From Bacteroidota bacterium (GTDB lineage: Bacteria; Bacteroidota; Bacteroidia; Chitinophagales; S012-47), in contig JAJRWN010000065.1 of NCBI GenBank assembly GCA_024276745.1, positions 1 through 38,582 on the forward strand: DNA of 38,582 nt, written 5' to 3'. The notes under the pieces were generated by a model. The model was not told the origin of the DNA, ran no database searches, and saw only the letters and a program-made list of their open reading frames with translations. The position numbers and the translations under genes were made by a program. Positions 10,027-38,582 of this stretch are shown piece by piece; positions within the stretch are counted from its first letter, which is position 1, and each line of letters starts with the position of its first letter.

Positions 10027-10794
10027 ATGAATCCGGATTTATCAGTAGTAGTGATTAGTCAAAATGCTGAACGGCATTTCGAAGCTTGTTTAAATGCTTT
10101 GAAAAAAGTAAGCGATGATGTAGTGATTGTAGATCATTATTCTGAAGACGCCACCGTAGAGATTGCAAAAGCAGCAGGATGTCGTGTTTTTTCAAAAAAA
10201 TGGACCGGATATTCTGCCGGTAAAAACTTTGGAAACGCCAAAGCAAAGCATGACTGGATTTTATCTATTGATGCTGATGAAGTACTTTCTGATGAATTAA
10301 TCCAATCGATCAATTCCTTAGAACCGGATGATAAGCAATGTGTTTATGCCATCAATTGTTTGAGCAGCTATTGTGGTAATTGGGTAAAACACGGGTCCTG
10401 GTATCCCGATTGGCATATCCGCTTGTTCAACCGCTTAGAGGTATCATGGAATCTGGAGGAAGTACACGAAACGCTTGCTTTACCTGCCGGTGTTTCGATC
10501 GTTAAATTGAAAGGCTCTTTATATCATTATACCGTTGATACAATTGAACAGCACCAATTAAAAATCGAACATTACGCTTCCTTAGGGGCTCAGAAGATGT
10601 ATGCTGCCGGCAGAAAGCCATCAATAATAATAAAATTTCTAAATCCTCCTTTTCGCTTTATGATTGATTATTTTTTTCGTGGAGGAATTTTAGACGGCAA
10701 AGCCGGTTGGCATATTGCAAGGCTTACTGCTAAAGAAAAATGGTTGAAATATGCTAAACTGCAACAATTAATTAAGCAGAAGAATGCGCTTTAA
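10027..10794 (+). CDS. Family 2 glycosyltransferase (WaaE/KdtX-like)
   Basis: The 255-residue protein has a GT-A fold: N-terminal nucleotide-sugar binding segment SVVVISQNAE, the DxD metal site in IDADEVLS (residues 82-84), and the pattern CGNWVKHGSWYPDWHIRLF seen in WaaE/KdtX-type lipopolysaccharide-core glucosyltransferases and their Bacteroidota relatives. It follows the O-antigen-ligase-like gene by 20 nt and is probably in the same transcript. Donor and acceptor sugars are not known. Its last 23 nt overlap the 3' end of the convergent glycosyltransferase-TsaC fusion gene. Confidence 0.88.
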   Translation: MNPDLSVVVISQNAERHFEACLNALKKVSDDVVIVDHYSEDATVEIAKAAGCRVFSKKWTGYSAGKNFGNAKAKHDWILSIDADEVLSDELIQSINSLEPDDKQCVYAINCLSSYCGNWVKHGSWYPDWHIRLFNRLEVSWNLEEVHETLALPAGVSIVKLKGSLYHYTVDTIEQHQLKIEHYASLGAQKMYAAGRKPSIIIKFLNPPFRFMIDYFFRGGILDGKAGWHIARLTAKEKWLKYAKLQQLIKQKNAL

Positions 10795-12406
10795 TAAAGC
10801 TGCGAAGCGGCTCGTTCATTCGCCCCTCTCTGATTAGTGTAAGTCGATTGTGTTCTATCCGTACGATTGTTGATGCTTTTTTGAATGTCTGAGCGCTTTC
10901 CTCGTGCAGTATAAAATCAACTTGATTTTTAATCACCTGATCTACTTCTTTCATTGAGCTTGCTGCAGCATTATGACTGAAATTCGCGCTTGTTGAAAGC
11001 AATGGCCGGCCTAATGTTTCAATCAATTGACGGATTGATGCTGAAGCCGGTATCCTAATGGCAATACTGTTGTCAGGACCTGTAATTGTTTTATTTAACT
11101 GCCGGGAAGCGGTAAAAATCAGGGTAATAGCCATGTTTCCGGATAAATCCCAGATTTTAAAGGCTATATCGGGAATTTGACGGGTATATTGCTGAACCAT
11201 TCGAACATTGCTGCACAAGACAATAAATCCTTTGTCAGGTTTTCGTTCTTTGATTTCAATGATTCTTTGAACGGCATCCGGATGATTTACTGCACAGGCC
11301 AGTCCGGGGATGGTATCGGTATCCATTAATAATACGGCACCTACATGTAGAAACTTAAGTGCTTCTTGATGATAATCGCTGACGGTATAAATAGGAGCGG
11401 TATCGTGATGGAAGTCTATGGCAGTATAAACAGACCTGGCTTTTATATGCAGTGCACAAGAAAAATGTTTTTCCGGACACGATGAGTAACCATGTAATCC
11501 ACACGGGCGGCAATCGAGCTTGGTATCTGTTTCCACTATCTTGTTTTGATCAGATAAAGGACCGAAACCGAATTGGGGTACAGTAGAACAGTATATGGTC
11601 GTAACCGGACTATTGACCCCTGATGCAAGATGTGTAGCGGCACTGTCGTTGCTAAACACCCGGACGGCTTTTTCCAGCAATGCTGCGGTTTGCAGAAGAT
11701 TTAGTTTACCGCATAGATTGCTAATCTGCGGATGAGCATCAAGCAGTTGTTTGGCAATGGCCGTGTCGGCTTTGCTACCAATGATATACACATTGAATTT
11801 TGAGGGTAATCTCCACAGCAATGATTTCCATTTTTCGACAGACCATTGTTTTGTAGCCCAAACCGATGCAGGGGCTACGACAAAATAAGGGCTACCCGAT
11901 TGATAGGTTTTAACGGCATCGTATTCATCATTTCCGGGGTATAGTTCCGGCCTGACGGGTGCTATGATTTTTTCTTCGAGTAAAGATAGATTACGCTGTA
12001 CTTCATGAATAATTTTACCTTGTTCCGAATCGGGAATACGATGGTTTACTTTTACGGATGCCAAAAAGGAGAAAGGGTTTTTATCAAAACAAATTTTTTT
12101 ATCCGTTTTGATAAATGCCATAATTAATCCACTTGAAGCAAAACGATGAACATTATAAACAGTATCGAAACGATAGTTTCTTAGTTTTCTGATGAGTTGG
12201 TATAAAGAGACCTGTTTATGGTGGCTTTTATCCCAAGTCCAAACCCGGTTAACGGCCGGATGATTTTTTAATAAAATTTCATTGCCCTTCCTGACCAGGA
12301 AATGTATATCGGCTTGCGGATATTTTTTGCGAAGTTGCTGTAATAATGGAAGTGCAAGTATCACATCGCCAATAAAGGCTGTTTGAATGACAAGTATTTT
12401 TCGAAT
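10772..12406 (-). CDS. Fusion: family 9 glycosyltransferase (heptosyltransferase-type) + TsaC/Sua5 threonylcarbamoyl-AMP synthase
   Basis: One uninterrupted frame carries two unrelated enzymes. Residues 1 to about 335 are a GT9 (ADP-heptose:LPS heptosyltransferase-like) domain: RKILVIQTAFIGDVILALP at the N-terminus with the catalytic Asp (D14 here), and FVVAPASVWATKQW and FSNDSAATHLASG in the donor-binding half. After a short linker, residues ~345-540 are a YrdC/Sua5 domain: DTDTIPGL near 362, IKERKPDKG near 385, SIAIR near 445 and STSAN near 470. That domain makes threonylcarbamoyl-AMP for tRNA t6A37. The conserved GT9 start lies upstream of the first GTG (12364), and no ATG/GTG/TTG precedes it before the in-frame TAG at 12434-12436; ATT at 12406 sits where Met is expected (544 residues). 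The gene follows infB by 22 nt. Confidence 0.85.
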   Translation of the reverse strand: MRKILVIQTAFIGDVILALPLLQQLRKKYPQADIHFLVRKGNEILLKNHPAVNRVWTWDKSHHKQVSLYQLIRKLRNYRFDTVYNVHRFASSGLIMAFIKTDKKICFDKNPFSFLASVKVNHRIPDSEQGKIIHEVQRNLSLLEEKIIAPVRPELYPGNDEYDAVKTYQSGSPYFVVAPASVWATKQWSVEKWKSLLWRLPSKFNVYIIGSKADTAIAKQLLDAHPQISNLCGKLNLLQTAALLEKAVRVFSNDSAATHLASGVNSPVTTIYCSTVPQFGFGPLSDQNKIVETDTKLDCRPCGLHGYSSCPEKHFSCALHIKARSVYTAIDFHHDTAPIYTVSDYHQEALKFLHVGAVLLMDTDTIPGLACAVNHPDAVQRIIEIKERKPDKGFIVLCSNVRMVQQYTRQIPDIAFKIWDLSGNMAITLIFTASRQLNKTITGPDNSIAIRIPASASIRQLIETLGRPLLSTSANFSHNAAASSMKEVDQVIKNQVDFILHEESAQTFKKASTIVRIEHNRLTLIREGRMNEPLRSFIKAHSSA

Positions 12407-12428: not shown

Positions 12429-15197
12429 TTATTCTAAAGTACGTTTTATTTGAATTTCTTCAAAAGCTTCAATGGTATCGCCTACTTTAAGATCGGCATA
12501 ATCTTTTACCGTTAGTCCACAATCTTGCCCTGATCTTACTTCTTTTACATCGTCTTTAAAACGTTTCAGAGAACTCAGTACACCGGTATACATAACAATA
12601 CCCTCACGAACTACATGAATTTTTGAATTTCGGTTGACTTTACCGTCAATAACCATACAACCGGCCACTTTACCCACTTTGGTAATTTTGAAAATTTCTT
12701 TTATTTCAATCATCCCCAAAACATGCTCTTCCACTTTAGGCTCAAGCATACCTTCGAGTGCCGATTTAATTTCTTCAATAGCATCATAGATAACGGAGTA
12801 GTTTCTCAGTTCAATATTGTGAAATTCGGCCAGTTTACGTGCTTTCAATGCAGGCCTGACCTGGAAACCGACAATAATAGCGTCTGATGCCGATGCCAAT
12901 AAAATATCGGATTCGGTAATTTGCCCCACTCCTTTATGAACGATATTTACTTGAATTTCTTCGGTAGAAAGTTTTAACAGAGAATCGGAAAGTGCTTCAA
13001 CGGAACCGTCAACATCACCTTTTACGATGATGTTAAGTTCTCTAAAGTTGCCGAGTGCCAAACGTCTGCCAATTTCTTCCAGGGTGATATGTTTTTGTGC
13101 TCTTAGTCCTTGTTCCCGTTCGATTTGCGATCTTTTATAGGCAACCGATTTGGCATCTTGTTCAGAGGTATACACTCTAAATTTTTCGCCTGCCTGAGGG
13201 GCCCCGTTAAGGCCTAATATTTGAACAGGTGTTGACGGTCCGGCTGATTTAATTTTTACACCTCTTTCATTATTCATTGCTTTTACATGGCCAAAACAAC
13301 TGCCGGCCAATACCATATCACCTATTTTCAATGTTCCTTCCTGAACCAGCACTGTAGTTACATATCCCCGGCCTTTATCAAGGGTAGCTTCAATTACGGT
13401 ACCTATGGCCGGTTTATCGGGATTGGCTTTTAATTCTAATAATTCGGCTTCAAGCAAGATTTTTTCCATCAGTTTATCGATGTTAATACCTTTTTTGGCC
13501 GAAATATCTTGTGATTGGTATTTGCCTCCCCAGTCTTCAACTAATAGATTCATGGCGGCCAATTGTTCTTTTATTTTTTCTGCATTGGCATTGTCTTTAT
13601 CGATTTTATTAATAGCGAATATCATAGGAACACCGGCTGCTTGTGAGTGGCTGATGGCTTCTTTTGTTTGGGGCATGATATTGTCATCGGCTGCAACTAC
13701 AATAACGGCAACATCTGTAATTTTTGCTCCCCTTGCTCTCATGGCTGTAAAAGCTTCGTGGCCGGGTGTATCTAAAAAACAGATTCTTTTACCGTCATCA
13801 AGAATAACCTCATAAGCACCTATATGCTGGGTTATTCCGCCCTTTTCTCCGGCAATTACATTAGTGTTTCTTATGTGGTCAAGCAGCGAAGTTTTTCCAT
13901 GATCTACATGACCCATAATCGTAACTATAGGCGGACGGGGCAAGAGTGTTTCCGGATCATCGTATTCTTCTTCCTGATCATCCTGTTCGCTTATGGTTAT
14001 AAATTTTACTTCATGATCAAATTCTGCCGCGACCAATTCTATTATTTCGGCATTTAGCCTTTGATTGATCGAAACCATTATGCCAAGACTCAGGCAAACA
14101 CCGATAATCTGGGTAGGCGATACATCGAGCATATTGCCTAATTCAGCTACAGAAATAAATTCAGTGACTTCAATGAGATTGGTATTGATATTTTCTACAG
14201 CTTCCAGTTCGTTTTGTGCATGTAGATCACGCTTGGATTTACGGTGAACTTTACGGCTTTTGGTTTGCTTTTGGCCTCCGGTAATTTTGGCCATGGTTTT
14301 TCTTAGCTTTTCTTCAATCTCTTGTTGAGATATTTTGTTTTCCTCAAGTACAGCCGTTTTAGGCTTGATTCGGTTGTCTCCTGGTATGGTTTTAGACTTT
14401 ACCTTTTTTCTTATTCTTCTTTTCTTTTCGGTTTCTTTTTCACCCGATGTAGCCACCGGTTTCTTTTCTTTCTTTTTTTGCTTTGTTTTTTTCTCAGCCA
14501 GTTCTATTTTGCCTACTTTTTTGGTCCCCCGAAGTTTTACATACTTTGTTTTTTCAATTTCAGTAATGTTTTCTACTTCTTTATTTTTTTCAATTTCAGG
14601 GGTTTTCTCCGGAACTTTTTTGGTTTCTTCTTTTTTGGGTGGAAGTACTTCTTTGCTTGTTTTTTTTACTTGTGTTTCTTCTTTTTTCCGTACGGGCTTT
14701 TCAGGTGCTATATTGATGCTGCCTACTACTTTCGGCCCTTTTAATTGTGGTTTTTCATTCGTTTTAACTTCCTTCTTTTCGATGGGTTTTGGGCTAGATT
14801 CTGGAGAAGGCTTTGCTGTGGTTTTTTCTACTGCCGGATTTTTTTCTTCCTTAGGTTTTTCGGTAGTAACTTCTTTTGTGTCTTCACCTATTCCTCCAAT
14901 CGATACGTCAACCGGTTCTTCATCTTGACCTTTGCGATGCAGTATTTGTTCCCGGTCGATTACAATGTCTTCTTTATCGCTATTACCCAAAGTGATTTTT
15001 TCGGCTTTGTCTTTCAGGTCTTTTTCAGGTTGAAATTTGGCCACGAGTAAGTCATACATCTCGGCAGACAATTTACTGGAAGGACTACTGTTAATTTCAA
15101 ATCCTTTGCTATGTAAGTATTCAACAATAGTTGAAATCCCTACATTAAATTCGCCTGCTGCTTTGGCTAATCGTTTTAATTTTACTACCTCGGGCAT
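12429..15197 (-). CDS. infB: Translation initiation factor IF-2
   Basis: The 922-residue protein is a GTPase that brings initiator tRNA to the 30S subunit. An N-terminal IF2N domain (residues 1-55) is followed by a long, highly charged Lys/Glu-rich segment (about 60-330), a second IF2N domain near 345-395, the G domain with GHVDHGKTS at about 429-437, DTPGHEAF and NKID, and the C-terminal domains that bind fMet-tRNA. Length and order are normal for Bacteroidota. It is the third gene of rimP-nusA-infB (9 nt after nusA). The charged segment creates long spurious open frames on the opposite strand around 14.3-15.0 kb. Confidence 0.98.
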
Positions 15198-33287: not shown

Positions 33288-35006
33288 TCAGAAAGTTTCT
33301 ACCTGATGAACATAAGTACCTTTTTCGTCATAAAGATGAACTGCACAAGCTATGCAAGGATCAAAGGAATGAATGGTCCTTAAAACTTCAAGTGGTTTTT
33401 CCGGATCATCCACCGGAGTTCCAATAAGTGAAGCTTCATAAGCAGAACGTTGTCCTTTTGCATCGCGTGGTGATGCATTCCAGGTACTGGGTACCACCAA
33501 TTGGTAATTATTAATTTTTTTGTCTTTTATTTTAATCCAATGTGCCAGAGCACCCCGTGGTGCTTCGGTCATACCTACTCCTTGAGCTTCATCGGGCCAG
33601 GTATCCGGATCAAATAATTCGGTTGTGGCCGTACGGGTATCACCATTTTTGATATTTGCCATCAGTTGATTATAAAATTCCATACTCCAGCCGGTCATCA
33701 ATTGAGTCTCAAGCCCACGTGCCGCTGTGCGTCCAAGGGTAGAAAACAAGGCTTCTACCGGTACGTCAAGAGCTGTTAAAACACCTGTAACCGCTTCGAC
33801 ATATTCATCCTTACCTGAGGCAAAACCAACCAACATTCTGGATAACGGACCAACTTCCATAGCATTTCCTTTCCAGCGTGGTGTTTTCATCCAGCTATAC
33901 TTACCTTCTACATTTAGTTGATCGTAGGGTGGATTGGGTCCGGTAAAGTTTAATTTGGTTTCGCCCTCAAAGGGATGTTTACCGGTTTCGTCACCTTCTT
34001 CATATTCGTACCAGGAGTGGGTCACAAATTCTTGAATTTCTTCTAAATCGGCCGGATTGATTTCTTGTACTTCATTCAAATTACGATTCATAATGACACC
34101 GCGTGGAAACTTAAAACTTGAGGGGTCATTATATCCGTTCATCGGCAAATCGCCATAAACCAGGTAATTGGACAAACCACCACCGATAGCAGCCCAATCT
34201 TTATAAAAAGAAGCTACAGCCAGCAAATCAGGTATATAAACCTGATTGATAAAATCCTGTGCCTGGCCAAGCAAAGTACCTACATAAGCAAGCCGTTCGG
34301 CATTGATGGCATTATTTTCATCGAGATTGATAGAACAAGGCACACCACCTACCAAATAATTCGGATGTGGGTTTTTACCACCAAAAATGGTATGAATTTT
34401 TACAATTTCTTTTTGCCATTCCAGGGCTTCCAAATAGTGGGCTACAGCCATCAGATTGGCTTCGGGTGGTAATTTATATGCATTATGTCCCCAATACCCA
34501 TTGGCAAAAATACCAAGCTGCCCACTTTCAACAAATTTGCTTAATCTTTTTTTCAAATCGGAAAAATAACCCGGAGAGCTGTTAGGCCATTTCGAAATAC
34601 TTTGTGCCAAGGTGGAAGTAGCCGCAGGATCAGCACTTAATGCCGAAACCACATCAACCCAGTCAAGGGCATGCAAATGATAAAAATGAACGACATGATC
34701 TTGCATATATTGAGCAGCAAACATGAGGTTTCTAATCATTTCGGCATTAGGCGGAACAATCATACCCAATGAATTTTCGACACAACGCACCGATGCCAAT
34801 GCATGCACTGTAGTACAAACACCACATACTCTTTCAGTAAATGCCCATGCATCGCGCGGGTCTCGTCCTTTTAAAATAATTTCAATACCCCTGACCATGG
34901 TGCCTGAGCTGTATGCATCAACGACTTTGCCATTTTGAATATCTAATTCTACCCGCAAGTGGCCTTCAATCCGGGTAACGGGGTCAACTACAATTCTATT
35001 TGCCAT
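33288..35006 (-). CDS. hyaB: [NiFe]-hydrogenase large (catalytic) subunit, group 1
   Basis: The 572-residue subunit binds the NiFe(CN)2CO centre. The L1 motif RVCGVC gives C61 and C64, with E14 in TRIEGH, and the L2 motif DPCIACAVH gives C551 and C554. After His557 there is a 15-residue tail, the extension normally removed by a HyaD/HybD-type endopeptidase once nickel is inserted. The protease gene is not in the window. The sequence fits respiratory uptake hydrogenases (HyaB type). It lies 15 nt after the small-subunit gene and 2 nt before the cytochrome gene. Confidence 0.97.
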   Translation of the reverse strand: MANRIVVDPVTRIEGHLRVELDIQNGKVVDAYSSGTMVRGIEIILKGRDPRDAWAFTERVCGVCTTVHALASVRCVENSLGMIVPPNAEMIRNLMFAAQYMQDHVVHFYHLHALDWVDVVSALSADPAATSTLAQSISKWPNSSPGYFSDLKKRLSKFVESGQLGIFANGYWGHNAYKLPPEANLMAVAHYLEALEWQKEIVKIHTIFGGKNPHPNYLVGGVPCSINLDENNAINAERLAYVGTLLGQAQDFINQVYIPDLLAVASFYKDWAAIGGGLSNYLVYGDLPMNGYNDPSSFKFPRGVIMNRNLNEVQEINPADLEEIQEFVTHSWYEYEEGDETGKHPFEGETKLNFTGPNPPYDQLNVEGKYSWMKTPRWKGNAMEVGPLSRMLVGFASGKDEYVEAVTGVLTALDVPVEALFSTLGRTAARGLETQLMTGWSMEFYNQLMANIKNGDTRTATTELFDPDTWPDEAQGVGMTEAPRGALAHWIKIKDKKINNYQLVVPSTWNASPRDAKGQRSAYEASLIGTPVDDPEKPLEVLRTIHSFDPCIACAVHLYDEKGTYVHQVETF

Positions 35007-35021
35007 TTTAATTCCTCCAAC

Positions 35022-36116
35022 TTATTTTTCGTTAATAACAATATCTTCATTTTTTATCCGCTTCCGTTTGGCAACATTGGTAGCCAGGAAATGAGCTGCA
35101 ATGCCTGCACCGGTTGCGATGCCCAGGCCAAGTCCGATTTTATCGGCATTTGATTCAATACCAAAACCGGGGAAGCTGGGTAAATGTTGATAGAAAGGAC
35201 CATTATCCCAAAAGCCTTCTTCACTGCAACCTATACAGGGATGACCGGATTGAATCGGATAGCTGGTACCGTTGTTCCAGCGTATTACACCGCATGCGTT
35301 ATAAGTAACCGGTCCTTTACAACCGACTTTATATAGACAATATCCTTTTTTTGCATTTTCATCATCGAATGATTCAACAAACAAACCGGCATCATAATTA
35401 GGTCTGCGGTAACAAGTATCGTGTACCCTGCGGGAATAAAAAGCTTTGGGACGGCCCATGCGGTCGAGTTGAGGCATCCGGCCAAAGGCAAGAATATGTA
35501 CAATTACTCCGGCCATAACTTCACCTATCGGAGGACATCCCTGCACATTAATGACTGTTTTTCCTTTCAAAACTTTATGCACGGGTTTGGCTCCGGTCGG
35601 ATTAGGTTTTGCTGCTTGTACACATCCTGCCGAAGCACAATTACCCCAGGCAATAATGGCTTTGGCACCTTCGGCAGCTTCTTTCACAATTTCTAATGCA
35701 CTCCGGCCTCCAATGCAGCAATAAGCTTCATTTTCGGTGGGTATCGAACCTTCTACCAACATCACATATTCACCATGATATTTTTCCATAGTGGCATGCA
35801 ATGCTTCCTCTGCCTGATTGCCGGCAGCTGCCATTAAGGTTTCGGTATAATCAAGTGATATTTTATCCAAAATAATATCTGCTACAATGGGATGTGAAGA
35901 ACGGATAAACGATTCGCTGCAGCAAGTACATTCCTGAAAATGAAACCATACAACCGGTAAGCGCGGATTATTTTCCAACGCTTCGACCACTTGGGCTACT
36001 CCGCTTGATTCCAGCCCCAGATAAGCAGCCATCATACTACAAAAACGTAGAAAATCTCTACGTGAATGACCGGCTTCCCGAATCTCCTCATACAAGGTTT
36101 TTTGTTTAATTGCCAT
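35022..36116 (-). CDS. hyaA: [NiFe]-hydrogenase small subunit, oxygen-tolerant type
   Basis: The 364-residue Fe-S subunit has a Tat signal (SRRDFLRFC, 18-26), so the folded complex is exported to the periplasm, and a C-terminal membrane helix at about 327-346. Proximal-cluster cysteines are C63, C66, C160 and C194, plus the two extra ones, C65 (CTCC instead of CTGC) and C165 (CASAGC instead of ..GG). These match Cys19 and Cys120 of E. coli Hyd-1, which support the redox-flexible [4Fe-3S] cluster. Distal ligands are H232, C235, C260 and C266; medial [3Fe-4S] ligands are C275, C294 and C297. It should oxidise H2 in the presence of oxygen. Confidence 0.97.
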   Translation of the reverse strand: MAIKQKTLYEEIREAGHSRRDFLRFCSMMAAYLGLESSGVAQVVEALENNPRLPVVWFHFQECTCCSESFIRSSHPIVADIILDKISLDYTETLMAAAGNQAEEALHATMEKYHGEYVMLVEGSIPTENEAYCCIGGRSALEIVKEAAEGAKAIIAWGNCASAGCVQAAKPNPTGAKPVHKVLKGKTVINVQGCPPIGEVMAGVIVHILAFGRMPQLDRMGRPKAFYSRRVHDTCYRRPNYDAGLFVESFDDENAKKGYCLYKVGCKGPVTYNACGVIRWNNGTSYPIQSGHPCIGCSEEGFWDNGPFYQHLPSFPGFGIESNADKIGLGLGIATGAGIAAHFLATNVAKRKRIKNEDIVINEK

Positions 36117-36140
36117 AATCAGTCAGTTTATATTTTAATC

Positions 36141-36350
36141 TTAATTTAATGTCGAATGCTTCTGAATATCTTCTATCAATAATGTCCCTTTCACCAAAAC
36201 TCTTTCTCCCAAATAATGTCCTTGCGTGTTGTTGGCGGTTAACATAATGGTTTTGGAATCGCAATAAACGCGAATGCTTTTTTTGCCATCATGTTCCAAT
36301 ATTTCAACAACTCGTCCGCTAAGTTCAATCTGATGCGTTTTGTTTTCCAA
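36141..36350 (-). CDS. Small protein of unknown function, first gene of hydrogenase operon
   Basis: This 69-residue product is one I do not recognise. It is predicted to be nearly all beta strands (QIELSGRVVEILEHDG, SIRVYCDSKTIMLT, GERVLVKGTLLIEDIQ), the look of a small beta-barrel such as an OB or TOBE/Mop-like fold. It has one Cys, no signal peptide and no membrane segment. The start must be TTG 36350: no in-frame ATG or GTG lies upstream within the transcript. It sits 22 nt after the predicted sigma-54 start site and 24 nt ahead of hyaA, so it is co-expressed with the hydrogenase. A chaperone or assembly role is conceivable but only from context. Confidence 0.7.
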   Translation of the reverse strand: MENKTHQIELSGRVVEILEHDGKKSIRVYCDSKTIMLTANNTQGHYLGERVLVKGTLLIEDIQKHSTLN

Positions 36351-36382
36351 TATGCCACCATTAAGAGAACAGCAATCCTTTA

Positions 36383-36398
36383 GGCAACGGCCGTGCCA
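36383..36398 (-). promoter_or_regulatory. Sigma-54 (-24/-12) promoter of the hydrogenase operon
   Basis: The minus strand reads TGGCACGGCCGTTGCC: TGGCAC, 5 nt, TTGC, identical to the sigma-54 consensus. With GG at -25/-24 and GC at -13/-12, transcription would start at about 36372, 22 nt before the TTG of the 69-codon gene. A sigma-54 activator gene lies immediately upstream. Confidence 0.85.
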
Positions 36399-36417
36399 TA
36401 TTGCTGTATTAGCAATA
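36399..36417. repeat. Inverted repeat TATTGCT-N5-AGCAATA beside the -24 box
   Basis: A perfect 7-bp inverted repeat abuts the -24 element, covering about -27 to -45. It is too close to the promoter for a normal activator site and might be a repressor or accessory-factor site. Confidence 0.4.
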
Positions 36418-36426
36418 CAAAAGAAA

Positions 36427-36439
36427 CAAGTCCTTGATT
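36427..36439 (-). promoter_or_regulatory. IHF-consensus site between enhancer and sigma-54 promoter
   Basis: The minus-strand AATCAAGGACTTG fits WATCAANNNNTTR at every position and lies at about -55 to -67, where IHF-type bending sites sit in sigma-54 promoters. Whether this organism has a true IHF or a related HU-like protein is not visible here. Confidence 0.5.
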
Positions 36440-36498
36440 ATGATAATTATATAAAGACAGTAAAATGATGGCCTGTAGTGAAAGGAATAAAACATCTG

Positions 36499-36529
36499 TG
36501 GATTTCCGTTAATCGCTTGCGGAAATCCG
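36499..36529. promoter_or_regulatory. Candidate enhancer (UAS): two palindromes 21 bp apart
   Basis: GGATTTCCG (36500-36508) and CGGAAATCC (36520-36528) are perfect inverted copies; each is itself near-palindromic (CGGA-N2-TCCG), with centres 21 bp apart on the same helix face. The pair is centred near -142 from the predicted sigma-54 start site. It also starts 7 nt past the activator's stop codon and could act as that gene's hairpin terminator, though a T-tract does not follow directly. Confidence 0.6.
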
Positions 36530-36535
36530 TAATCA

Positions 36536-37531
36536 CTAAACCTGGCCATGATTGGATGAATCCTGGCTTTGCAGATGACCGTTAAGTTTATACTTTTTAA
36601 GTTTATCCCTAAAGGTGGAAAGATTCATTTTAAGTTTACGGGCAGCATCGCTTTGATTGGCACTTGATTCAGACATGGCTTGCATAATCAGATTTTTCTC
36701 TACACAATCAACCACTTCTGAAAGAGTCATTTCTCCTTTCCCGAAACAAACCGAACATGCCTGAACAATTCTGCTTAAGCTATTATCATTTCTAAATTCA
36801 TCAGGCAAATCTTTTATATTTATTTCGCCATCGGTAAATAGGCTGGCCCGCTGAATGACATTTCTTAATTCGCGTACATTACCGGGCCAATGATAGGCAA
36901 TTAAAGCCTGCAGTGCCTGATTGGATACACTTATGCTGCGTCCGGAGGCAAATCGTTTTATAAAATGATTGACCAACAATGGAATATCGTCCCGTCTTTC
37001 CCTTAAGGGTGGTATTTCGATGGTCACCACATTGACCCGGTATAAGAGATCGGCACGAAAAAGTTGTCGTTTTACCATTTCTTTTAAAGATACTTTAGAA
37101 GCTGATATAAGCCGTATGTCAATGGGAATAGATTTTGTTCCACCGATACGCATCAGTTCTCTTGATTCGAGTACCCGTAGCAATTTTGTTTGAATATTCA
37201 GGGGTACATCATCAATATCATCAAGAAAAATACTGCCGGTATCGGCTAATTCAAAAAGACCTTTTTTGGTGTTTACGGCATTGGTAAAAGCTCCTCTTTC
37301 GTGGCCGAACAATTCGCTGGCCATTAAATCAGCCGGTAATGCGGCTAAGCTGATTTTTATCAGTGGATTGCTGCTCCGCGGGCTGCTTCGATGAATATAT
37401 TCTGCAAATATTTCTTTCCCTACTCCGGTTTCACCCACCAACAACACAGAAGAATCAGACTCGAGCACTTTTCTCAATTTCTCGAGAATAGCTCGCATTT
37501 TTTCATTCTGGGTGATGATACTTACGGACAT
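36536..37531 (-). CDS. Sigma-54-dependent transcriptional activator without sensor domain
   Basis: The 331-residue enhancer-binding protein starts directly with the AAA+ domain, as in PspF. Walker A GETGVGKE lies at 33-40, the sigma-54 contact loop reads GAFTNA (80-85) rather than GAFTGA, Walker B is IFLDDIDD near 101-108, the arginine-finger region LFRADLLYR is at 157-165 and WPGNVREL at 215-222. The C-terminus (about 270-315) is a Fis-type helix-turn-helix. A CSVC pair (C259, C262) lies in the linker. It follows hypE by 10 nt and lies directly upstream of a sigma-54 promoter for the hydrogenase genes, which makes it their likely activator. Confidence 0.92.
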   Translation of the reverse strand: MSVSIITQNEKMRAILEKLRKVLESDSSVLLVGETGVGKEIFAEYIHRSSPRSSNPLIKISLAALPADLMASELFGHERGAFTNAVNTKKGLFELADTGSIFLDDIDDVPLNIQTKLLRVLESRELMRIGGTKSIPIDIRLISASKVSLKEMVKRQLFRADLLYRVNVVTIEIPPLRERRDDIPLLVNHFIKRFASGRSISVSNQALQALIAYHWPGNVRELRNVIQRASLFTDGEINIKDLPDEFRNDNSLSRIVQACSVCFGKGEMTLSEVVDCVEKNLIMQAMSESSANQSDAARKLKMNLSTFRDKLKKYKLNGHLQSQDSSNHGQV

Positions 37532-37541
37532 TATTTTTGCT

Positions 37542-38582
37542 TTAACAGATTCTGGGTAATTGTTCGCCCGAAATCATATCGAGAATCCGGGTACTTCCGA
37601 TTCCTGTTTCCATGGTAACCATACCTTTATAATCTGTACATACTTCGCCAATAACAGCGGCATTTTTACCGGCTGGATTTTGCTGCATCATTTTCAATAC
37701 GGCATCCGCTTCTTCAGGAGGAACAAAAACCAGTATTTTTCCTTCATTGGCTATATACATGGGATCGAGTCCTAGTATTTCACAAGCTCCTTTCACTTCT
37801 TCCCGGATAGGAATTTTATCTTCAAAAAGCTTAATGCCAATATTGGCTGTTGCAGCAATTTCGTTGGTGGCACTGGCAATACCTCCTCTTGTAGGATCGC
37901 GTAATACGTGCAAATTCCGGCTTACCGAAAGGATGTCGTCCAGCAAATGATTTAAAGCAAATGAATCGCTTTGAATATGGGTTTCAAACGTAAGACCTGC
38001 TCTTGATGACATGATACATACACCATGGTCGGCTACATAACCATTGATCAAGATGACATCACCCGGTTTGCAATAACGTGGATTGATGTCAAGTCCTTCA
38101 TATACTTGACCAATACCGGCTGTATTAATAAAAATTTTATCTCCTTTTCCTTTATCCACGACTTTGGTATCACCGGTTACTATTTGCACCCCTGCTTTAT
38201 CGGCTGCTGTTTTCATAGATTGAACCACACGCCATAAATCTTGCATTGGAAAACCTTCCTCAATGATAAATGCTGCGGAGATATAGAGTGGTTTTGCTCC
38301 ACAACAGACCAAATCGTTGACGGTTCCGTTTATGGCCAAATCGCCTATATTGCCACCGGGGAAAAATATGGGTTGCACTACATAGGAGTCAGTCGTAAAG
38401 GCCAGTTTTTGATGCCCCATTTGAAAAACAGCTCCATCGTGTGCCTGATTCAACAAATCATTATCAAAATGCTTGATAAACATATCGCCAATCAAACGGT
38501 TTGATAAAGAACCTCCCCCTCCGTGAGCAAGCAATACGCGTTCGTATTCCGAAATAGGAATCGGACAGTTTAAATTAAAATC
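37542..38582 (-). CDS. hypE: Hydrogenase maturation protein HypE (5' end outside window)
   Basis: HypE dehydrates the carbamoyl group on its C-terminal Cys to cyanide for the NiFe centre. The C-terminus PRIC is intact, and the body shows LAHGGGGSLSNRLI, FTTDSYVVQPIFFPGGNIGDLAINGTVNDL, VTGDTKVV, LRDPTRGGIASATNEIA and IANEGK, all diagnostic. The frame stays open to the window edge and includes NCPIPISEYERVLLAHGGGG, so the real start is beyond base 38582; the TTG at 38534 is internal. Only a few residues should be missing. Other hyp genes are probably upstream in the same transcript. Confidence 0.96.
   Translation of the reverse strand, partial: DFNLNCPIPISEYERVLLAHGGGGSLSNRLIGDMFIKHFDNDLLNQAHDGAVFQMGHQKLAFTTDSYVVQPIFFPGGNIGDLAINGTVNDLVCCGAKPLYISAAFIIEEGFPMQDLWRVVQSMKTAADKAGVQIVTGDTKVVDKGKGDKIFINTAGIGQVYEGLDINPRYCKPGDVILINGYVADHGVCIMSSRAGLTFETHIQSDSFALNHLLDDILSVSRNLHVLRDPTRGGIASATNEIAATANIGIKLFEDKIPIREEVKGACEILGLDPMYIANEGKILVFVPPEEADAVLKMMQQNPAGKNAAVIGEVCTDYKGMVTMETGIGSTRILDMISGEQLPRIC

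Follow-up and report, generated by a model that had tools for sequence, protein, structure and literature searches.

The window, a stretch of 38,582 nucleotides from a Bacteroidota bacterium, contains a gene at 10772..12406 on the minus strand that encodes a glycosyltransferase 9 (GT9) domain and a TsaC/YrdC domain in one open frame. The fusion is genuine in the assembly and rare, and joins two ordinary families. Judging from the sequence, it is probable that a conserved GT9/TsaC gene pair has been fused by loss of a stop codon, and that the resulting protein is bifunctional, with its TsaC half probably the sole source of threonylcarbamoyl-AMP (TC-AMP). We infer that a gene pair conserved in Bacteroidota, in which GT9 is followed by a short TsaC, became a single gene when the intervening stop codon was lost, and that translation from an ATT codon would yield one uncut polypeptide whose two active sites work independently. 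Its GT9 half, at the N-terminus, would transfer sugar in outer-membrane glycan assembly of the LPS/LOS-core type, and the C-terminal half would produce TC-AMP in the first step of t6A synthesis. In relatives in which a separate long Sua5-type enzyme is present, the catalytic motifs of the linked TsaC tend to be lost.

The fused gene and its GT9 half

The minus-strand frame is open from position 12433 to the stop codon at 10774-10772, and its 553 codons include no internal stop. The plus strand of 10772-12406 contains many stop codons, so that the fused gene is on the minus strand. When Pfam profiles are run on the fused protein with their gathering cut-offs, Glyco_transf_9 (PF01075) is detected at residues 78-304 with 118.9 bits (cut-off 22) and Sua5_yciO_yrdC (PF01300) at residues 361-537 with 139.2 bits (cut-off 25.1). 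A spurious or chance frame is ruled out, because both domains score far above their cut-offs. The continuous frame reported in the first-pass annotation is thus borne out, and the motifs KERKPDKG, SIAIR and STSAN that it named are present.

In the fused frame, the N-terminal motif of GT9 is not preceded by any ATG, GTG or TTG. The earliest of these usual start codons is the GTG at 12364, the use of which would delete the motif. The start was assigned by comparison with the genes of two relatives, G001 and G002; the ATT at 12404-12406 (minus strand), which coincides with the end of the gene as given in the first-pass annotation, is aligned with the GTG of the G001 gene and is close to the ATG of the G002 gene. 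This codon is likely either a rare ATT start or a one-base consensus error, in which ATG or GTG is misread. ATT start codons are rare, those of infC and pcnB being examples in E. coli. The linker between the two halves (11366..11440, minus strand), the first part of which is modelled with low confidence, contains no ATG, GTG or TTG in its list of codons, and none of them is found between codons 300 and 370 of the fused frame, codon 370 being already within the TsaC fold. The linker therefore offers none of these three codons from which a free TsaC could be re-initiated, and the internal re-initiation considered in the first-pass annotation is not supported for such codons there.

The gene upstream on the same strand (12429..15197), which we take to be infB, is the neighbor that adjoins the fused gene in G001 and G002 as well. 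A convergent gene on the plus strand (10027..10794), presumably encoding a GT2-type glycosyltransferase, overlaps the end of the fused gene by 23 bases at its 3' end. The genome to which the window belongs, G000, is a draft assembly of 2.3 Mb in 164 contigs with a completeness of 89.98%.

The GT9 half (11429..12403, minus strand) ends with a CxxC...HFxCA tail and matches the profile of its orthologue group with an E-value of 6.4e-172. Its PF01075 score places it in the GT9 family. Its best NCBIfam match is heptosyltransferase II (TIGR02195), but the score of 115.4 bits is below the cut-off of 134.6, so that it is not assigned as an LPS heptosyltransferase II. Thus, this half resembles the GT9 heptosyltransferases of the WaaC/WaaF/WaaQ type in its Pfam domain and in its best NCBIfam match, but the fused protein differs from them in its score below this cut-off and in bearing a TsaC domain.

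The TsaC half and the probable source of TC-AMP

The TsaC/YrdC domain (10823..11353, minus strand) is recognized by Pfam, by TIGR00057 and in an AlphaFold2 model. The KxR/SxN catalytic tetrad is used as a filter for TsaC in PMC10321239, in which threonine or serine at the position of E. coli Thr138 is given as the signature of TsaC and proline as that of Sua5. Alignments to 41 intact TsaC sequences and E. coli YrdC locate the first half of the tetrad (K395 and R397 in KxR) at 11243..11251 and the second half (S482 and N484 in SxN) at 10982..10990, both on the minus strand. K395 and R397 align with K50 and R52 of E. coli YrdC (1hru), and T481, which immediately precedes SxN, aligns with Thr138 of the same structure. 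The domain therefore combines a PF01300 score far above the cut-off with the tetrad and a threonine at position 138, as is found for short TsaC (YrdC) of E. coli, and like the latter has no Sua5_C domain (PF03481). It differs from E. coli TsaC in being joined to another domain, of which it forms the C-terminal partner, and in the loss of a W, of the proline of PTDT and of the RP that precedes the TVIY strand. It shares the catalytic domain and the tetrad with Sua5 (TsaC2), but differs from Sua5 in lacking Sua5_C and in carrying the serine-threonine-serine signature of TsaC instead of the Sua5 proline. It belongs to the same Pfam family as YciO, and its nearest sequence match in the PDB by E-value is a YciO structure (1k7j), but both KxR and SxN are present in it.

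The extent to which the domain is worn was estimated with a reference set of intact short TsaC, made up of 39 sequences from named loci and those of G022 and G016 (41 in all). In this set, conservation reaches 90% or more in 41 columns. Of these 41 positions, 27 are kept by the window domain, including K395, R397, K401, R460, T481, S482 and N484. When each member of the intact set is left out in turn, its retention is never below 79%, with a median of 98%, and that of the window domain is lower than those of all 41. Its terminal branch (1.26) is the longest in a tree of 75 TsaC sequences, which does not resolve its placement.

The window domain passes TIGR00057, the TC-AMP synthase model, with 136.3 bits (cut-off 123.2). 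The YciO-like protein P0009 also passes with 157.4 bits, and passing this model therefore proves little; annotations should be read with caution, because TIGR00057 labels a YciO-like protein as TC-AMP synthase as well. The score of the window domain for NF007919 (95.5) is below the cut-off of 175, as are those of the intact relatives L132 (99.3) and P0007 (108.8). Matches over the full length of the domain are obtained at 139-149 bits. The AlphaFold2 model, which covers the TsaC domain and the linker (10775-11440), has a mean pLDDT of 89.9. Foldseek matches it best to Sua5 and TsaC2 structures, then to YciO and E. coli YrdC, and less well to HypF. The ratio of pN of TsaC to that of GT9 is 1.34 for the window against G016 and 1.20 for the intact pair of G022 and G016. 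These results indicate that the domain has the fold of TsaC and a complete tetrad, yet is more worn than any control. It is most likely a working TC-AMP synthase, as predicted from these features.

Two proteins of G000 score above the PF01300 cut-off, one being the fusion and the other a protein of 204 amino acid residues on contig C65. The latter contains neither KxR nor SxN and is YciO-like. It is rejected as a replacement for TsaC on account of the missing motifs and of the argument in PMC12506659 that YciO is unable to have the role of TsaC. Sua5_C gives no match in the roughly 90% of G000 that is assembled. Thus, in the assembled part of G000, from which one tenth of the genome is missing, no candidate other than the fused domain was found to bear the tetrad. 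Synthesis of t6A is described as essentially universal in PMC10321239, and the fused TsaC half is probably the enzyme with which the cell starts it. The first-pass annotation expected the TsaC half to be essential in the absence of another copy, and the search of the genome agrees with this, having returned only the tetrad-less C65 protein.

At the end of the window (33288-38534, minus strand), open reading frames are present that we take to be NiFe-hydrogenase-like and HypE-like, and the contig stops just beyond them. A HypF-type YrdC protein is not found in G000, and may fall in an assembly gap. G001, G002 and G003 carry PF01300 frames of 708-794 amino acid residues. In G017, which belongs to the same order and is 99% complete, PF01300 gives no match at E-values up to 1, YciO included, and Sua5_C gives none either.

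Gene pair, fusion and degenerate copies in relatives

GT9 and TsaC are frequent neighbors. In a sample of 396 genomes of the order, the GT9 orthologue group is present in 120 (E <= 1e-70) and short TsaC in 222. Among the matches listed, which for short TsaC number 150, both genes are found in 66 genomes. They lie within 1 kb of each other in 47 of these, always on the same strand, with GT9 preceding TsaC in 18 (the fusion included) and TsaC preceding GT9 in 29; in the other 19 they are far apart on one contig (7) or on separate contigs (12). Among the best 80 of 574 confirmed named loci, GT9 and short TsaC are on the same strand within about 400 nt in 40. GT9 precedes TsaC within about 140 nt in 25 of these 80 loci and at 1.95 kb in one, TsaC precedes GT9 in 15, the genes are on opposite strands in one, and no TsaC is present in the locus in 38. 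This result indicates that the pairing is not random in Bacteroidota. Separate genes in relatives, which the first-pass annotation regarded as refuting the fusion, are indeed found, but as conserved neighbors, and they count against an unrelated pairing and not against the fusion.

Of the 25 close pairs in which GT9 precedes TsaC, 11 have both genes in one reading frame, and in six of these 11 only a single stop codon lies between the two open frames (L133, L134, L136, L138, L139 and L142). In L138 the TsaC that lies one stop codon from GT9 is motif-less. The distance from HFxC of GT9 to the PTDT motif is 138 nt in the window and 100-245 nt in unfused pairs. Because GT9 and TsaC are conserved neighbors, some of them separated by just one stop codon, the fusion would most simply have arisen by loss of such a codon.

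Frames of at least 509 codons are found in four of the 120 genomes of the order with the GT9 orthologue (G000, G001, G002 and G076). One long frame runs through the same junction as in the window in G001 (517 codons) and G002 (509 codons). These two, G000 and G003 are the four genomes of one family in the sample, and G076 belongs to another family. The GT9 gene of G003 is cut by a contig end, and a search for the rest of it gives just a short match to a GT9 paralogue. In a sample of 395 genomes of the phylum, GT9 is present in 22 (E <= 1e-80), and G000 is the only one of these with a frame of more than 400 codons. None of the best 80 of the 574 named loci contains a fused gene. A scan of contigs with the single fused protein as query found no relative. 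A long YrdC-containing frame of G024 spans undetermined bases and is not counted. Thus, the fusion is not widespread, given its absence from the 80 named loci and its restriction to G000 among the 22 genomes of the phylum sample, and it is not unique to the window, given the long frames of G001 and G002. In the gene of G076 (L227, 1-1689, minus strand), GT9 is extended at its C-terminus by about 220 residues, which are similar to the extension of G001. The fusion in G076 would be either an older one or a second, separate one. The family of G076 comprises six genomes, two of which have GT9, and G015, of the same genus as G076, has GT9 without the extension.

The extensions of G001 and G002 each keep seven of the 41 conserved TsaC positions. 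Unfused TsaC-like genes lie directly 3' of GT9 in L138 (4991-5545, plus strand) and L156 (4987-5565, plus strand). These genes keep 17 and 18 of the 41 positions respectively, with KxR retained and SxN and PTDT gone, and their homology to TsaC is clear (profile E-values of 1.2e-34 and 5e-32). Unlike the window domain, all degenerate copies have lost SxN. The similarity of the extensions to TsaC is weaker. Pfam detects no YrdC domain in P0002 and P0003 at E-values up to 1, and the search of the G002 genome gives only a sub-threshold YrdC match (E 0.109). The TsaC profile matches the extensions of G002 and G001 with E-values of 0.00075 and 0.0012, at the search size of a single sequence, the hhalign probability for the extensions against TsaC is 4-17%, and BLASTP with the window domain gives E-values of 9e-05 for G001 and 1.2 for G002. 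Among the 21 pairs tried, Z scores are 5.7 for the window and G001, 5.3 for G001 and G002 and 4.1 for G001 and G076 (each 0/500 shuffles), and 4.4 for G002 and G016 (1/500 shuffles); no signal is detected for the window and G002, the window and G076, or G076 and intact TsaC. The extension of G076 is thus connected to TsaC solely through G001. From their position, their length and this weak pairwise similarity, the extensions of G001, G002 and G076 look like degenerate TsaC. Such degenerate extensions in relatives, mostly together with Sua5, were not foreseen in the first-pass annotation.

A long Sua5-type gene, defined by the presence of Sua5_C or by a PF01300 frame of more than 300 codons, is found in four of the five genomes with a degenerate copy (G002, G076, G396 with L138, and G397 with L156), and is not found in the fifth, G001, which is 82% complete. 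Among the 41 genomes in which the copy is intact (G000 and the 40 behind named loci), it is found in two, which are those of L143 and L165. The difference gives a Fisher p of 0.0004 when the genomes are treated as independent, their shared ancestry being ignored. In a hand count of 59 genomes, with TsaC taken from the matches listed, Sua5_C is present in 35, short TsaC in 20, both in one and neither in five. The genome with both, G021, belongs to the same order. Short TsaC and Sua5 are described as seldom co-occurring in PMC10321239. These results indicate that, in relatives that have a separate Sua5-type enzyme, loss of the catalytic motifs from the linked TsaC is common. Apparently, Sua5 took over the job of the worn TsaC in these relatives.

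The motif-less TsaC copies of L138 and L156 are 50% identical, with a pN of 0.358 and a pS of 0.706, and the pN of the adjacent GT9 is 0.222. The ratio of pN of TsaC to that of GT9 is 1.6 for this pair and 0.76, 0.85 and 1.08 for three intact control pairs. These copies are therefore under purifying selection, although they are less constrained than their GT9 neighbors, which hints at a second role for the two unfused copies. The extensions of G001 and G002 are nearly unalignable, whereas their GT9 halves are 54% identical, so that the constraint on these extensions is weak. The chance that the extension frames stay open neutrally, counting substitutions only, is 0.0037 for 0.5 substitutions per site and 0.00075 for 1.0, and neutral drift is an unlikely cause of the open frames of the G001, G002 and G076 extensions despite their decay. 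A GT9-linked TsaC might have a dual role, as t6A enzyme and, without catalysis, as a domain that assists or regulates a glycosyltransferase of the outer membrane, and might after takeover by Sua5 be kept by selection as a pseudoenzyme, fixed by fusion in some lineages; we regard this proposal as speculative and rather unlikely.

Alternative explanations and known YrdC fusions

The window TsaC might also be no TC-AMP synthase but a worn, non-catalytic appendage of GT9, with a Sua5 encoded in the missing tenth of the assembly. This is conceivable but unlikely. The retention of only 27 of the 41 conserved positions, below every control, and the longest branch agree with it, as do the degenerate state of the extension in each of the other three long-frame genomes and the Sua5 found in two members of its own family, G002 and G003. 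The tetrad, K401, R460 and T481 are nevertheless retained, whereas SxN is absent from each degenerate copy. The domain is also matched over its full length, its pN ratio is close to that of the intact control pair, and G000 gives no match to Sua5_C. An error of sequencing or assembly, by which a stop codon is lost or the frame is shifted while the cell has two genes, is very improbable. It would fit a draft of 164 contigs, a missing usual start that could be a consensus error, and the many unfused pairs that are in frame and one stop codon apart, but the long frames of G001 and G002 cross the same junction, and the linker has no ATG, GTG or TTG at which a second gene could begin.

It is quite unlikely that the linked TsaC also serves GT9 in a second role without catalysis, as a scaffold or regulator. 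Such a role would explain why the pairing is conserved, why the two genes fused and why motif-less copies survive. The constraint on the L138 and L156 copies in genomes that both have a long Sua5-type gene, and the frames that are still open in G001, G002 and G076, are consistent with such a role. When Sua5 is present, however, the short TsaC beside GT9 is mostly simply missing, as in G005 and G015, the extensions of G001 and G002 are almost unalignable, and the adjacency may reflect operon structure only, both gene orders being seen. A fusion of two catalytic halves, with TsaC probably supplying the TC-AMP of the cell, is the reading that we prefer.

The relatives form a natural series, in which GT9 and TsaC are separate neighbors, are fused with the tetrad, are fused with a worn TsaC, or remain unfused with a motif-less TsaC in genomes that have Sua5. 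This series bears on the displacement of an essential enzyme by a non-orthologous one, and on whether the leftover domain has acquired a role in envelope glycan assembly. In the cases listed in PMC10321239, the first enzyme of t6A synthesis stands alone or is coupled to domains of related chemistry, and YrdC is joined to other domains in HypF and TobZ; vertebrate Ato transporters carry a YrdC domain as well (PMC13316224). In the window, by contrast, the domain of this first enzyme is carried on a cell-envelope glycosyltransferase. No fusion of a GT9 protein or heptosyltransferase to TsaC was found in searches of the open-licence literature of PubMed Central. YrdC is combined with a Kae1-like domain in HypF and TobZ, with other t6A enzymes in TsaN and with an animal transporter in Ato; none of these joins it to a glycosyltransferase, as the window fusion does. 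The structure of TsaN (8ide) is among the Foldseek matches of the window model.
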